This document shows, in pieces, positions 16,955-22,218 of a stretch of DNA of 64,000 nucleotides (positions are counted from its first letter, which is position 1; each line of letters starts with the position of its first letter). The DNA comes from Methyloversatilis sp. XJ19-49. Its GTDB lineage: Bacteria > Pseudomonadota > Gammaproteobacteria > Burkholderiales > Rhodocyclaceae. Made by a program: the position numbers and the translations under genes. The DNA is taken from the NCBI RefSeq assembly GCF_024580145.1, contig NZ_JANINI010000002.1, positions 186,001 to 250,000 of the forward strand, given 5' to 3'. The notes beneath the pieces are model-generated. The model had not been told where the DNA came from, did not search any database, and saw nothing but the letters and a program-made list of their open reading frames with translations.

Positions 16955-17848
16955 ATGCGCATCGGCATTGATCTGGGTGGAACAAAGACCGAATTGATTG
17001 CGCTGGACGGCAACGGTACGGCGTGCCTGCGCCGACGCGAGCCGACGCCGTCCGGCGACTATGCAGCGACGGTCGCCCTGATCGCCCGGCTGGTGCACGA
17101 CGCCGAACAGCGGCTGGGCGTGCCTGCGACGGTGGGCATCGGAACTCCGGGTTCGCGCTCGCCGCTGACCGGGCGCATGCGCAACGCCAATTCCACCTGC
17201 CTGAACGGCCAGTCCTTGCAGCAGGACGTCGAAGCCGCACTCGGGCGCGAGGTGCGCATGGCCAATGACGCCAATTGCTTCGCGCTGTCCGAAGCGGTGG
17301 ACGGCGCGGGGCGGGGGGCACCGGTGGTGTTCGGCGTCATCCTGGGCACCGGCGTCGGTGGCGGCATCGTCGTCGATGGCCGGGTGCTGGAAGGCGCCAA
17401 TGGCGTGGCCGGAGAGTGGGGTCACAATCCGATGCCCGCGGGGCCGGATACCGAAGGCGGTGCGCCCCCGCCATGCTACTGCGGTCGCGCCGGCTGCATC
17501 GAAACCTGGCTGTCCGGTCCGGCGCTGGCGGCCGATCACCGCCGGGTGACCGGCGAGCCGCTGGCGCCGGAGCAGATCGTCACGCGCGCCGCAACCGGTG
17601 ATGCCGCCTGCTCAGCCACGCTGGCGCGCTACGAAATCCGGCTGGCGCGCGCACTGGGCGGTGTCATCAACCTGCTCGACCCGCAGGTGATCGTGCTCGG
17701 CGGCGGGCTGTCCGCCTTGCCGGGTCTGTATGAGCGGGTGCCGCAGCACTGGATGCCGCATGTCTTTTCCGACCTGATCACGACCCGTCTGTGCCCGCCG
17801 GTGCATGGCGGTTCCTCCGGCGTGCGCGGTGCCGCGTGGCTCTGGTAG
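16955..17848 (+). CDS. ROK-family sugar kinase (fructokinase-like)
   Basis: A 297-residue cytoplasmic kinase. The N-terminal phosphate-binding motif is [15 protein letters not shown], the sugar site includes [11 protein letters not shown], and GTGVGGGIV is the second nucleotide motif. The ROK zinc motif reads CYCGRAGC, followed by [10 protein letters not shown]. The arrangement is closest to Mak-type fructokinase or N-acetylglucosamine kinase; substrate cannot be decided. ATG 16955 follows a GGGAGG ribosome binding site. No sugar transporter is adjacent; the bufferin operon begins 107 bp downstream on the same strand. Confidence 0.9.
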
Positions 17849-17874
17849 TCCATGCAGATTTTTTCCATGGTGCG

Positions 17875-17902
17875 GTAAGGTTCGGCGCGCCGCAGGGTCT
17901 AC
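17875..17902 (+). promoter_or_regulatory. Possible ECF-sigma promoter of the bufferin operon
   Basis: GTAAGG (17875-17880), a 16-bp spacer and GTCTAC (17897-17902) resemble ECF-type -35/-10 elements. Some bufferin operons are under ECF sigma control. No sigma or anti-sigma gene is in the window, and a short match like this arises easily by chance. The intergenic region 17849-17955 also has a weak CCATG...CATGG inverted repeat around a T-run. Confidence 0.25.
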
Positions 17903-17955
17903 TGCCGTGCAAACCACATGACCGGTTTGATTTTTCCACCCTCAGGAGATCACAC

Positions 17956-18222
17956 ATGAACAAGTCCGCCGCCCTTTCTGCCGCCCTCGCATCCGTGTTC
18001 GCCCTCGGCATCGTGACAAGCCCTGTTGTCGCGGCTGCAGAAGGCAAGGAGAAATGCTACGGCGTGGCCAAGAAGGGCGCCAATGACTGCGCATCCGCCA
18101 ATGGCTCGCACAGCTGCGCCGGTCAGGCCAAGGCCGACAATGACCCGAACGAGTGGGTGTTCGTCGCCACCGGCACGTGCGAAAAGATGGGCGGCAAGAC
18201 CGCTGCGCCGAAGAAGGGCTGA
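17956..18222 (+). CDS. bufA: Bufferin-type RiPP precursor (DUF2282, BufA1-like)
   Basis: An 88-residue precursor with a Sec signal peptide (cleavage probably after VVAAA, near residue 28) and a core containing four cysteines at 34, 45, 54 and 75. The core pattern [25 protein letters not shown] and GTCEKMGG is that of DUF2282/BufA1. In the described bufferins an MNIO enzyme converts cysteines of such a precursor into thiooxazole-type copper ligands before export to the periplasm. ATG 17956 follows CAGGAGA. First gene of the operon bufA-bufB-bufC-doxX. That this peptide is modified and binds copper is inferred from family and context. Confidence 0.9.
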
Positions 18223-18229
18223 TGCCCGG

Positions 18230-18255
18230 GGGATGTAGCCGGACGGCTGCATCCC
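18230..18255 (+). promoter_or_regulatory. Stem-loop between bufferin precursor and enzyme genes
   Basis: An 11-bp stem GGGATGTAGCC/GGCTGCATCCC (one G-U pair) with a GGAC loop lies in the 48-bp gap between bufA and bufB. No T-run follows, so it is not a classic terminator. It may protect the 3' end of an abundant bufA mRNA or reduce read-through so that precursor exceeds enzyme. Confidence 0.6.
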
Positions 18256-18270
18256 TGTTCCGAGATTCCC

Positions 18271-19125
18271 ATGATCCTGCATCCTGCCTCGCCGACCGGC
18301 ATCGGTCTGCGCCAGCCGCACTACGCCCGCGTACTGGAAGAACGACCGCGCATCGGCTTTATCGAGGTGCACAGCGAAAATTTCTTTCATGACGGTGGCG
18401 CCGCATTGCGCACGCTGGAGCGCGCCCGCGAATGCTATCCGGTCAGCCTGCACGGCGTCGGTCTGGCACTCGCGTCGGTCGACACGCGCCATGACGCCCA
18501 TGTCGAACGGCTGGCGAAGCTGGTTCAACGCATTGAACCCGAATTCGTGTCCGAGCACCTGTGCTGGAGCGCAGTCGATGGCGTCCACTTCAACGATCTG
18601 CTGCCCTTCCCCTACACCGACGAGGCACTCGCGCTGGTCGCCATGCGCGTGAATGCGCTGCAGGACCGCCTGTGCCGCCCGGTCATGATCGAGAACCTGT
18701 CGGCCTACGTGCAGTTTCACGGCGCGCAGATGAGCGAAGCCGAATTTCTCGCCGATCTGGTCTGCCTGACCGGTTGCGGACTTTTGCTGGACCTGAACAA
18801 CCTTTACGTGAATGCCCGCAATTTCGGCACCGACCCGATGGATGCGCTCGAACGATTGCCGATGCACGCGGTACGGGAGATCCACCTGGCCGGTCATGCG
18901 GTGACCGAATACGGCCTGATCGACACCCATGGCAGCGCGGTGTGCGACGACGTGTGGGCGCTGCTCACCGCCGTGCGCCGGCGTGGTGTCGGCGCACCGG
19001 CACTGATCGAATGGGATACCGATCTGCCGGAACTAGACATCCTGCTGGCCGAGGCGGCCCGGGCCGATCGCATCGGCGCCGACGCCGGCACATCGGATGG
19101 AGACCGCCATGTCTGCGCTGCTTGA
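18271..19125 (+). CDS. bufB: MNIO/DUF692 bufferin-modifying enzyme (BufB-like)
   Basis: A 284-residue TIM-barrel protein of the multinuclear non-haem iron oxidase family (DUF692, relatives MbnB and BufB). Metal-binding positions seen are GFIEVHSENFF near 30-40, SLHGVGL, EHLCW, MIENLS, LLDLNNLYVNARN, IHLAGH and LIEWDTD. Such enzymes use mixed-valent iron and O2 to modify cysteines of RiPP precursors. The adjacent DUF2282 gene supplies the substrate. The 3' end overlaps bufC by 29 bp. The last 20 residues are less conserved and Asp/Gly-rich. Confidence 0.93.
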   Translation: MILHPASPTGIGLRQPHYARVLEERPRIGFIEVHSENFFHDGGAALRTLERARECYPVSLHGVGLALASVDTRHDAHVERLAKLVQRIEPEFVSEHLCWSAVDGVHFNDLLPFPYTDEALALVAMRVNALQDRLCRPVMIENLSAYVQFHGAQMSEAEFLADLVCLTGCGLLLDLNNLYVNARNFGTDPMDALERLPMHAVREIHLAGHAVTEYGLIDTHGSAVCDDVWALLTAVRRRGVGAPALIEWDTDLPELDILLAEAARADRIGADAGTSDGDRHVCAA

Positions 19126-19909
19126 CGCCCAGCGGCGCTTCGCTGGTGCCTTGCGCAGCGCGCAGGGCGAACCGGCCATGCTGCCGTTGCTCTCCGGCGA
19201 CGCCGAACGCAACCGCGGCCTGCTCGGTGTCTATCGCGGCAATGCGGTGGCCAACGCCAACGCCGCGCTGACGCTGGCCTACCCGGTGTGCCGGCAGATC
19301 ACCGGCGACGACTACTTCGATGCGCTGGTACGCCGTTACTGGGCGCAGACGCCATCGACCGACGGCGACCTCAATCGCTACGGCCACAGCTTCGCCGACT
19401 TTCTCGACGGCTTCGAACCGGTGCGCGCGCTGCCCTACCTGCCCGACGTGGCCCGCCTCGAATGGTCGGTGCATGTCGCGACGACGGCGGCCGATACCGC
19501 GCCACTGGGTGGCGAGGCCTTTGCCGGCCTCGACCCCGAGGCGCTGGCCACGGCGCGCCTGCGCATGACGCCCGGTTTCGCGCTGCTCGGCAGTGCATGG
19601 CCGATCGCCGATATCTGGCTGCAGCATCAGCCGGACGCCGCAGGCGGTTCGGGCGGCGCCTTCGACATCGATCTTGAACAGGCTCAGTACGCCGTCGTGT
19701 GGCGCGACGGGCTGCGTGTGCGGGTGGCGGCGCTGTCCGCCGGCGCCCACGCATTCTGGGCCGCCATCGCGCTGGTGGGTGCCAGCTTCGGCGACGCCTG
19801 GGCCGGCGCCAGCACGCAAGAACAGGACTTCAACCTCGCAGCCACCATTGAACAGGCCATTGCATGCGGCTGGCTGCACCACATCGAAACCAGGGGAAAC
19901 GAACAATGA
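19097..19909 (+). CDS. bufC: DUF2063 bufferin partner protein (BufC-like)
   Basis: A 270-residue protein with the DUF2063/HvfC N-terminal domain: LLDAQRRFAGAL, then NRGLLGVYRGNAVANANAALTLAYPV, and the YFDALVRRYW motif near 70-82, followed by a beta-rich C-terminal domain. Partners of this type bind the precursor leader and present it to the MNIO enzyme (MbnC is the analogue). ATG 19097 lies inside bufB; ATG 19109 (MSALLDAQ) is the alternative. It ends four bases into the DoxX gene. Confidence 0.9.
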   Translation: METAMSALLDAQRRFAGALRSAQGEPAMLPLLSGDAERNRGLLGVYRGNAVANANAALTLAYPVCRQITGDDYFDALVRRYWAQTPSTDGDLNRYGHSFADFLDGFEPVRALPYLPDVARLEWSVHVATTAADTAPLGGEAFAGLDPEALATARLRMTPGFALLGSAWPIADIWLQHQPDAAGGSGGAFDIDLEQAQYAVVWRDGLRVRVAALSAGAHAFWAAIALVGASFGDAWAGASTQEQDFNLAATIEQAIACGWLHHIETRGNEQ

Positions 19910-20364
19910 ACGCTGTAACCCGCGCATACGACCTCGGCGCGCCGCTCGCGCGCCTCGCCGATCAGGTGCAGCCGCTGCTGCTGCTCGCCCTGCGCCTGTA
20001 TATCGCCTGGGTGTTCATGAAGGCCGGTCTGACCAAGATCGAGGACTGGGACACCACGCTTTTCCTGTTCACCGAAGAGTACAAGGTGCCGCTGCTGCCG
20101 CCCGCCATCGCGGCCTTCATGGGTACGGCCGGCGAAATCGTGCTGCCGCCGCTGCTCGCCATCGGTCTGGCCGGACGCTTTGCCGCGCTGGGCCTGTTCG
20201 TCGTGAACATCATGGCGGTCGTGTCCTACCCCGCACTGTGGGAATTCGAGTGCCCGGCGGCCGTGGAGGCGCACCTGTGGTGGGGCGTCGGGCTGCTGGG
20301 GCTGGCCGCGTTCGGGCCCGGCGCGCTGTCGGTCGATCGGCTGCTGGGCCGGCGCCGCGACTGA
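19906..20364 (+). CDS. DoxX-family membrane protein of the bufferin operon
   Basis: A 152-residue inner-membrane protein with about four helices. It shows the DoxX pattern: LLALRLYIAWVFMKAGLTKI with KAG-TK near 37-44, a second helix with GEIVLPPLLAIGLAGR, and a final GLLGLAAFGPGALSVD. ATG 19906 overlaps the bufC stop (ATGA). DoxX proteins are regular fourth members of bufferin/HVF clusters; a role in quinone or thiol redox balance is proposed. ATG precedes MNAVTRAYDLG. Confidence 0.9.
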   Translation: MNAVTRAYDLGAPLARLADQVQPLLLLALRLYIAWVFMKAGLTKIEDWDTTLFLFTEEYKVPLLPPAIAAFMGTAGEIVLPPLLAIGLAGRFAALGLFVVNIMAVVSYPALWEFECPAAVEAHLWWGVGLLGLAAFGPGALSVDRLLGRRRD

Positions 20365-20492
20365 GTCGACGCGGGTGCCGGGCCGGCTTTCCATGTCGGC
20401 GCTGAAACATGGTGCAACACAGCATTGGCGTCGCCGGGGAACGCCAGGCCGTTCGCGTTGCCCGACCGGTATTCGATACCGGGTACGCTGCT

Positions 20493-20984
20493 TTGACTGT
20501 TTCCTTCCGCTGCATCCTGCTGTGCGCAGCCGGCCTCGCCAGTGCCGCAGCATCGGCCGACACGACGGCGCCGTCACACCGTCTCGGCCTGCAGATCGGC
20601 CCCTACGTCCATCACTGGGACCACGAATCCGACCACAACGATACGCCGGCCCTGTTCGGCCTCGAGTACGAGTCGCCGACGCGCTGGAACGTCGGCGCGG
20701 CGTGGTTCCGCAATTCCTTTGATCAGGCGAGCGAGTACTACTACGCCGGCCGCAGCTGGCCGATCGACGCGGTCAGCCCGAACCTGTACGTGAAGGTGAC
20801 GGCCGGCGCACTGCTCGGCTATACCGGCGAATACGAAGACAAGATTCCATTCAACCGCAAGGGCGTGGCGTTTGCGGTCATTCCGGCGCTGGGCTACCAG
20901 TACGACCGCTACAACGCCCAGATCGCGCTGCTCGGCACGGCCGGCTTCATGGTGACCTTCGGCATCGATCTGGGGCGCTGGTGA
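20493..20984 (+). CDS. Small outer-membrane beta-barrel-like protein
   Basis: About 163 residues from TTG 20493, chosen because it gives a signal peptide (FRCILLCAAGLASAAASA) directly at the N-terminus; the frame is open from GTG 20409. The mature protein has repeated Tyr/Trp-rich strands (GLQIGPYVHHW, FGLEYESP, YYYAGRSWP, PALGYQYDRY) and ends in FGIDLGRW, an aromatic C-terminus typical of outer-membrane barrels. Similar proteins are sometimes labelled sn-glycerol-3-phosphate transporter or PagP-like. I cannot assign an activity. A CCGGTAT-TCG-ATACCGG hairpin at 20466-20482 lies just upstream and may end the bufferin transcript. Confidence 0.65.
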   Translation: MTVSFRCILLCAAGLASAAASADTTAPSHRLGLQIGPYVHHWDHESDHNDTPALFGLEYESPTRWNVGAAWFRNSFDQASEYYYAGRSWPIDAVSPNLYVKVTAGALLGYTGEYEDKIPFNRKGVAFAVIPALGYQYDRYNAQIALLGTAGFMVTFGIDLGRW

Positions 20985-21030
20985 AGGTCGGGTGAAACGA
21001 CAGCCCGACGATGCGACCGGCGGCAGTGCG

Positions 21031-22122
21031 TCACACCGGCAGCGTCGGTTCGCTGCCGCCGCGCTGCAGGATGACGCCGCAGCCGCGGGTTTCATGCAGG
21101 TCAAGCCGTTCGAGCGAGGGGATCAGCGGCGTCGCCAGCGTCATGATGCGGCGTGCCAGGCTGGCGGTGTCGGCGTCCAGGCCATTCTCATCCATCATTT
21201 CATGCAGCGGCGCGTGGTCGAGCCGTTCGAACAGCGGCGCGAACTGCGCCTTCACGTCGCCGAAATCGACCGTCCAGCCCATGACCGGATCGAGTGGGGC
21301 AGCCAGATGAAGGCGCAGGGTGAAGGTGTGGCCATGAATGCACCGACGCGGATCGCCGTCGGGGGCGCGCTTGAGCTGCACGGCACTGTCCAGCGTGAAT
21401 TCCTTCCACACGCGGTGCTGCAGGCCGTCGAACTGTGCACCGCAGCTTGCGGTTTCGTAAACGGTGACCCAGCACAGGCCGGGCAGCGCGGGTTTCAGCT
21501 GCTGCCATATCCAGGCGGCAATGTTTTCGCTGGTCGGATTGTCCAGCCCGGCGATGTCATTCAGGCAAGCGAGATGCAGCTGCGCATGCAGCGGCGCCCA
21601 CAGTGCGTCGATCCGGTCGTGGTCGACAGGCGCTTCAGATGTCCGCTTCGCATGCAGCAGCACTTCGAAGCCGTGGCCGTGCATGCGGCCGCACTTGTGG
21701 CCGGGCGCGACGCGCGGCAGCTGATGCGCCGACTGGAATACGTGGCGGCGCCACACGTGCGCGTCGCCGTGCCGGTCCAGTTGCACGCCGGCGTGGCGGG
21801 TGCTGCGCACGCCGACGGCGTGCACTTCGGGCAGGTCGAGCTGTCCGCGCAGCCAGCGCGCGAGATTTTCGTCGCCGGGCCGGGTGACGGTGTCGTTCAG
21901 CAGCCGGTAGTCGAGCGGCGCGAGCACCGTGCGCAGGCGAGCCGCCAGCGCATCGACCTCGCCGCCGGCCACACCGCCCCAGCCCTCGGGCAGCGCGGCG
22001 CGCACGCTGCCGGTGAAGCTGTGGCCGTGCAGCGCGTGCGCGCGGTGGGCGGTCGGCAGGTGTTCGAGGTGGCGCGCGGCTTCGAAGTCCGCAGCGGCAA
22101 CTTGGAGCAGGATGTCTTTCAT
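21031..22122 (-). CDS. Three-domain 6-pyruvoyl-tetrahydropterin synthase (QueD/PTPS)-like protein
   Basis: A 363-residue protein made of three consecutive PTPS-like units, each with a zinc-type HGH motif at 32-34, 138-140 and 253-255. A canonical single-domain QueD/PTPS has about 120 residues. Only the middle unit keeps the CxxxHGH motif (CGRMHGH from Cys134), with LDNPTSENIA and TVYETASCGA near 183-220, so it is probably the active one. The first lacks the Cys; the third has CIHGH with the Cys displaced but retains GWTVDFGDVKA and LDHAPL. Start MKDILLQV at ATG 22122. Candidate roles are pterin or 7-deazapurine synthesis; methylotrophs also need pterin cofactors. Confidence 0.85.
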   Translation of the reverse strand: MKDILLQVAAADFEAARHLEHLPTAHRAHALHGHSFTGSVRAALPEGWGGVAGGEVDALAARLRTVLAPLDYRLLNDTVTRPGDENLARWLRGQLDLPEVHAVGVRSTRHAGVQLDRHGDAHVWRRHVFQSAHQLPRVAPGHKCGRMHGHGFEVLLHAKRTSEAPVDHDRIDALWAPLHAQLHLACLNDIAGLDNPTSENIAAWIWQQLKPALPGLCWVTVYETASCGAQFDGLQHRVWKEFTLDSAVQLKRAPDGDPRRCIHGHTFTLRLHLAAPLDPVMGWTVDFGDVKAQFAPLFERLDHAPLHEMMDENGLDADTASLARRIMTLATPLIPSLERLDLHETRGCGVILQRGGSEPTLPV

Positions 22123-22218
22123 GATCGGGGGTCGGGGCATACGGTTGCGGCAGCGCCGCAGTGTGCCTGAGTGCGCAGTACTATCAGTATCGATCGAATT
22201 GCAGAAGGAGCACACCTC

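Follow-up and report, generated by a model that had tools for sequence, protein, structure and literature searches.

A Buf1 bufferin operon of Methyloversatilis and its predicted control by an unlinked ECF sigma factor and DUF3379 protein

The bufferin operon and its upstream element

The DNA analysed here is a stretch of 64,000 nucleotides from Methyloversatilis sp. XJ19-49 (positions 186,001 to 250,000 of contig NZ_JANINI010000002.1), referred to as the window. It carries an operon for a bufferin, a copper-binding ribosomally synthesized and post-translationally modified peptide (RiPP), preceded by a conserved element with the shape of a promoter for an extracytoplasmic function (ECF) sigma factor. 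Comparative evidence supports a regulatory circuit in which an ECF sigma factor encoded elsewhere in the genome would serve this operon together with a second bufferin operon and genes for methionine-sulfoxide repair. The features at the locus are as follows, bit scores being those of Pfam and MNIO standing for multinuclear non-heme iron-dependent oxidase.

17875..17902, + strand: ECF-type promoter, -35 GTAAGG at 17875-17880 and -10 GGTCTAC at 17896-17902
17956..18222, + strand: bufA1, 88-residue bufferin precursor, DUF2282 (PF10048, 86.3 bits, cut-off 22.4)
18271..19125, + strand: bufB, MNIO (DUF692) bufferin maturase (MbnB_TglH_ChrH, PF05114, 327.2 bits, cut-off 25)
19109..19909, + strand: bufC, DUF2063 partner protein (PF09836, 74.8 bits, cut-off 27.2)
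19906..20364, + strand: doxX, DoxX-family membrane protein (PF07681, 56.7 bits, cut-off 23.6)

A first-pass annotation made from the letters alone had proposed a bufferin-type operon of four consecutive genes in 17956-20364, and the domain searches bear this out: all four open reading frames (ORFs) lie at the proposed positions, in the order bufA-bufB-bufC-doxX, and the precursor with its four cysteines is a DUF2282 protein. By inspection, these cysteines are residues 34, 45, 54 and 75, and the N-terminus has, by inspection alone, the typical n, h and c regions of a signal sequence; no NCBIfam model matches BufA1 at E 0.001. The placement of 18271-19125 in DUF692, for which a domain search had been named as the check, follows from Pfam and from NCBIfam NF050167 (MNIO_BufB, 343.4 bits, equivalog cut-off 310). 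BufB further matches the sequence of a DUF692 crystal structure (3bww_A, E 1.5e-34), and its three closest relatives in named records come from Methyloversatilis metagenome-assembled genomes (90-93% identity). The DUF2063 and DoxX partners, both above their Pfam cut-offs, fall under those of the NCBIfam models NF050145 HvfC (47.6, cut-off 142) and NF050144 HvfX (53.8, cut-off 80), respectively, and BufC has no sequence relative in PDB up to E 1. Gene starts were assigned by inspection: bufC more likely begins at 19109 than at 19097, the start of the longest ORF, and doxX likely begins at the ATG at 19906, which overlaps the bufC stop as ATGA.

The published Buf1 operons (Antoine et al. 2025, PMC12452194) share with the one in the window a four-cysteine precursor, the MNIO, the DUF2063 protein, DoxX and the gene order; their precursors bear a signal sequence, as BufA1 does by inspection. 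The bufferin-type architecture that had been suggested thus holds, and 17956-20364 is a textbook, ordinary Buf1 bufferin operon.

The upstream element was compared across 61 genomes, namely the source genome (G000) and 60 relatives, with a genus subset of 13. Both GTAAGG-N15-GGTCTACTG, as an exact match, and GTAAGG-N15-GGTCTACT are found before bufA1 in 13 of the 13 genus genomes. In an alignment of 14 upstream regions from Methyloversatilis and near relatives, the non-coding blocks that stand out as conserved are, start-codon region aside, GTAAGGT and GGTCTACTG. The pattern GTAAGGTN{14,15}GGTCT has a single match in the window (17875-17900), compared with none in 100 shuffles, and yields 44 sites in the 13 genomes as opposed to 6 for a reversed control pattern. 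No sigma-70-like promoter was found in 17700-21100. By sequence, the bufA1 element has the shape established for promoters of the ECF family. It should be noted that the shared element was recognised only after the promoters of the ECF genes described below had been viewed. An initial pattern, GTAAGGT-N15-GTCTAC with one mismatch allowed, had bufA1 as its sole match in the genome, next to 6 matches of the control, and was dropped because its -10 allowed too little variation.

An unlinked ECF sigma factor and its predicted regulon

No ECF gene adjoins the operon, as the first-pass annotation had remarked, which left its induction as an open point. That point can now be narrowed: the promoter is conserved and of ECF type, and the sigma factor that probably recognises it is encoded on another contig.

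G000:C23:151495-152010: ECF sigma factor gene

Of the 24 matches that a region-4 profile search lists for the genome, many belong to response regulators. The gene above carries GTAAGGTT-N14-GGTCT just 5' of its start. In each of the 13 genus genomes the element precedes the orthologue (12 with GTAAGG, one with GTAAGC), beginning 57-60 nt ahead of the start of the match. The gene that follows, overlapping as GTGA, encodes a 250-residue DUF3379 protein (107.7 bits) and is a candidate for the anti-sigma factor of the adjoining ECF. In 18 of 18 orthologous pairs this protein has a cysteine near its N-terminus and an HxxxCxxC motif, which we take to be a spelling of the zinc-associated anti-sigma (ZAS) motif. 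In a search of an open-licence PubMed Central (PMC) library, no paper names DUF3379, either alone or together with 'sigma factor'. A sigma-F/NrsF regulator of the Caulobacter type was rejected as a candidate: the genome has no match to NrsF (PF06532), for which the Caulobacter control was positive.

Clear ECF orthologues (52-100% identity) occur in 18 of the 61 genomes, comprising the 13 of the genus and G018, G024, G035, G052 and G058; weaker matches in other genomes (26-39% identity) were left out of this count. DUF2282 is present in all 18 and, overall, in 37 of the 61 genomes (13/13 of the genus and 24/48 of the others). ORFs read by inspection place the pair beside bufferin genes in three cases: G035 has the order bufA1-doxX-ECF-anti-sigma, G052 has ECF-anti-sigma followed by bufA1-bufB-bufC, and in G058 the pair is divergent from bufA1-bufB-bufC-doxX. 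The ECF gene, unlinked in Methyloversatilis, thus lies next to bufferin genes in these other genomes. The bufA1 element is absent from all 13 loci from genomes without a clear ECF orthologue, these being the loci that the search yielded out of 19 such DUF2282 genomes.

Each genus genome further encodes two MNIO genes (E 0.001). In the source genome the second one belongs to a separate operon, in which it follows a precursor that passes the NCBIfam BufA2 model (101.9, cut-off 60) and precedes a DUF2063 gene.

G000:C1:210518-212554: Buf2 operon, six-cysteine precursor, second MNIO and DUF2063 protein

All 13 genus genomes have a similar six-cysteine precursor ahead of their second MNIO, so that both bufferin families are present in the genus. 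The element lies within 180 nt upstream of bufA2 in 12 of these genomes, and the remaining one (G005) has GTAAGG...GGTCA, with one mismatch.

MsrP and MsrB were chosen from the pattern matches, after which 220 nt upstream of every copy in the 13 genomes were scanned. The element was found at 16 of 17 MsrP copies (10 exact, 6 with one mismatch). When the 5 copies already found by the pattern are set aside, 11 of 12 carry it, including a second MsrP in four genomes. For an exported MsrB, it precedes 9 of 10 orthologues (at least 71% identity) and none of 5 distant MsrBs (at most 52% identity). As background, 4000 random 220-nt windows drawn from the 64-kb window gave 0.15% exact matches and 0.32% with one mismatch. 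On this comparative basis, MsrP is predicted to belong to the regulon and MsrB probably does. An ArsS-like radical SAM protein, known from pattern matches only, perhaps belongs to it too.

Several observations weigh against the proposed circuit. The link between the sigma factor and the promoters is a comparative one. The GTAAGC form, which was dropped as a genome-wide search term, is not enriched (27 sites, compared with 72 for the reversed control), and therefore most bufA2 sites and all MsrB sites rely on position and conservation. The nine MsrB sites are the same pattern matches that led to MsrB, so that the new information on this gene consists of one miss and the five distant MsrBs without the element. 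The random background windows are mostly coding, not upstream, DNA. At bufA1 the spacer is N15, one base under the N16 of the other targets. Among the bufA1 copies scanned in genomes that carry the ECF but lie outside the genus, 3 of 7 have the element, two of them exactly and one with a single mismatch; the bufA1 of G018 and the second bufA1 copies of G052 and G035 are without it, and in the G052 cluster a one-mismatch site stands before the ECF gene heading the cluster. Finally, the element is missing at an MsrP copy of G010 and at an MsrB orthologue of G006.

Relation to known systems and interpretation

The closest published parallel is sigma-F of Caulobacter crescentus, which controls two DUF2282-DUF692-DUF2063 operons, one with DoxX, and a YedY gene (PMC3511200). 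The two systems agree in the two-operon and YedY/MsrP content, a GTAA-type -35 and N16 spacing. They differ in the promoter, which reads GTAACC...CGAA in Caulobacter (PMC3511200) and GTAAGS...GGTCT in Methyloversatilis, and the Caulobacter-type GTAACC-N16-CGAA was rejected for bufA1, which has GTAAGG-N15-GGTCTAC. They also differ in the anti-sigma factor, NrsF in Caulobacter and the candidate DUF3379 protein in the present genome, which has no NrsF, while the MsrB and ArsS-like genes are possible additions relative to the sigma-F regulon. According to the bufferin survey, Buf1 clusters carry sigma factor and NrsF genes and Buf2 clusters do not (PMC12452194), whereas here an unlinked ECF and DUF3379 pair is predicted to serve both families. 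The survey also mentions a Buf2 bufferin of C. vibrioides (PMC12452194). The Caulobacter CC2907-2905 operon is probably the operon of that bufferin, which would give a probable precedent for a Buf2 operon governed by an ECF whose gene lies elsewhere.

Further parallels exist outside Caulobacter. In Neisseria meningitidis, promoters of the form GTMAGBWTT, 12-13 nt, CGTCTAAH place MsrA/MsrB and the sigma-E operon itself under sigma-E, which is paired with a ZAS anti-sigma; neither peroxide nor diamide nor singlet oxygen elicits a response (PMC2893595). Compared by eye with this consensus, GTAAGGTT and GTCTA fit at the same spacing; the -10 considered here begins with GG, and bufA1 reads GTCTAC. 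The anti-sigma of the Neisseria sigma-E/NMB2145 pair has a ZAS motif (PMC2893595), similar to the cysteine and HxxxCxxC of the DUF3379 protein. Haemophilus RpoE2 has been described as resembling the Neisseria sigma-E regulon, and its gene is induced by hypochlorous acid (HOCl) and hydrogen peroxide (H2O2) (PMC7907618). Among the targets of these two systems are Msr genes and a DoxX-containing cluster (PMC2893595, PMC7907618), as predicted here. Our own reading of PMC13097082, combined with general knowledge of the system, is that the Neisseria sigma-E operon is an MNIO operon. Differences lie in the Msr type (MsrAB in Neisseria and Haemophilus, MsrP/MsrB here), in the EGKCG repeats of the gonococcal and Haemophilus precursors (PMC13097082) and in the size of the anti-sigma, 67 residues for Haemophilus HrsE (PMC7907618) compared with 250 for the DUF3379 protein. 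Brucella offers a further case, an MsrPQ-type operon regulated under HOCl by an ECF16 pair (PMC8315932).

From the observed domains, promoter conservation, co-occurrence and gene adjacency we infer the following course of events. The unlinked ECF sigma factor (G000:C23:151495-152010) would be held inactive by the adjoining DUF3379 protein until thiol-oxidising or metal stress in the envelope disarms the latter. The freed ECF would then transcribe its own gene, the Buf1 operon from its ECF promoter, the Buf2 operon, MsrP, probably MsrB and perhaps the gene for the ArsS-like radical SAM protein. By analogy with characterised bufferins, BufA1 would be made with a Sec signal, its two central cysteines would be oxidised to thiooxazoles by BufB aided by BufC, its outer two cysteines would form a disulphide, and the exported peptide would chelate copper in the periplasm. 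Each thiooxazole corresponds to an expected mass shift of -4 Da per cysteine. Taken as a whole, a Buf1 operon run by an unlinked ECF/DUF3379 pair with a regulon of two bufferin operons and Msr genes is, in our judgement, likely.

Three other explanations have to be weighed against this account. That the DUF2282-DUF692-DUF2063-DoxX genes form a sulfur-metabolism or membrane operon and make no RiPP is suggested by the Pfam label of DUF2282, 'predicted integral membrane protein', and by the 2012 Caulobacter paper, where DoxX was taken as a sulfur-metabolism protein (PMC3511200). This is extremely improbable given the MNIO_BufB equivalog match, the four cysteines in each genus precursor inspected and the bufferin literature reviewed in PMC12452194. 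The operon could also be constitutive or under a CueR- or CusR-type copper regulator, with GTAAGG/GGTCTAC belonging to something else. The absence of an ECF gene beside the operon speaks for this, but we regard it as unlikely: no sigma-70-like promoter was found in the region 17700-21100, the two halves of the element are, start-codon region aside, the conserved non-coding blocks of the aligned upstream regions, and the element, present also before the ECF gene and MsrP, is missing from the 13 loci of genomes without a clear ECF orthologue.

The third explanation keeps the circuit and changes its signal. The regulon would mainly repair oxidised envelope proteins, the bufferins would limit copper- or oxidant-driven damage, and copper excess itself would not be the signal. 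The element common to MsrP and probably MsrB fits this, as do the HxxxCxxC of the anti-sigma candidate and the Haemophilus case, in which MsrAB and a DoxX-containing cluster are under an ECF that is paired with a small anti-sigma and whose gene is switched on by HOCl and H2O2 (PMC7907618). Set against it, bufferins are reported to bind copper and to protect against copper (PMC12452194), and we consider this explanation possible, with somewhat less than even chances.

Under the proposed ECF/DUF3379 circuit, the question of induction is reduced to one ECF gene, one element, two bufferin operons and the Msr genes. The novelty lies in the ECF/DUF3379 pair, in its unlinked position within the genus and in a predicted reach that takes in methionine repair as well as both bufferin families. 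In this methylotroph genus, a sigma/anti-sigma pair unlike that of Caulobacter would thereby connect bufferins with methionine repair, and DUF3379, a Pfam family of unknown function, would gain an anti-sigma role. That the same combination occurs with a different sigma/anti-sigma pair suggests that selection keeps the combination itself and not the regulator. More tentatively, we hypothesize that copper-binding MNIO peptides and periplasmic methionine-sulfoxide repair constitute one recurring stress module, taken over independently by different ECF/anti-sigma pairs (sigma-F/NrsF in Caulobacter, sigma-E/ZAS in Neisseria and ECF/DUF3379 here). If so, bufferins would be part of envelope damage defence, beyond copper resistance alone, and the ArsS-like radical SAM enzyme would be a new module partner. 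Among the open-licence PMC papers listed that also name copper or sigma factor, none pairs Methyloversatilis with bufferin.

Additional element sites and features of the locus

Additional features comprise two element sites elsewhere in the source genome and, in the window, a leader stem and a possible fifth gene.

G000:C1:128274-128300, - strand: element before the ArsS-like gene (L166), pattern match
G000:C42:151627-151653, - strand: element before the gene for a membrane-anchored 692-residue sigma-54 activator (L165)
17910..17929, + strand: short stem-loop CAAACC/GGTTTG near the 5' end of the predicted transcript
20409..20984, + strand: possible fifth gene, 191-residue protein directly 3' of doxX

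The ArsS-like protein (TIGR04167, 449.9, cut-off 300) is encoded behind the element at 8 genus loci that were read, all of them pattern matches only; we know of no link between this family and bufferins. Also as pattern matches only, the element precedes DUF1223 at 2 loci and, by inspection, a thioredoxin-like gene at one. A gene related to the sigma-54 activator follows the element in L151 and L158 as well; at the corresponding site L144 (G003) no such ORF is among those listed, and the activator was kept outside the claimed regulon.

The stem at 17910-17929 is a match of a terminator-like scan, which gave 3 matches in the region compared with 1.9 +/- 1.4 in shuffles. A terminator so close to the predicted start is unlikely. 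Some other species have the stem with exchanged base pairs (AAGCC/GGCTT), which makes its conservation possible, and loci L050 and L076 have no comparable bufA1 leader stem.

Downstream, the 191-residue protein has no Pfam or NCBIfam match at E 0.001. It occupies the same position in 7 of 7 loci (L004-L010; five Methyloversatilis and two assigned to higher taxa) at 58-90% identity, and is possibly an outer-membrane protein and the fifth gene of the operon; DoxX is 76-99% identical in the same seven loci. Further along the window, 21031-22215 on the - strand encodes a protein with three stretches matching 6-pyruvoyl-tetrahydropterin synthase in Pfam.

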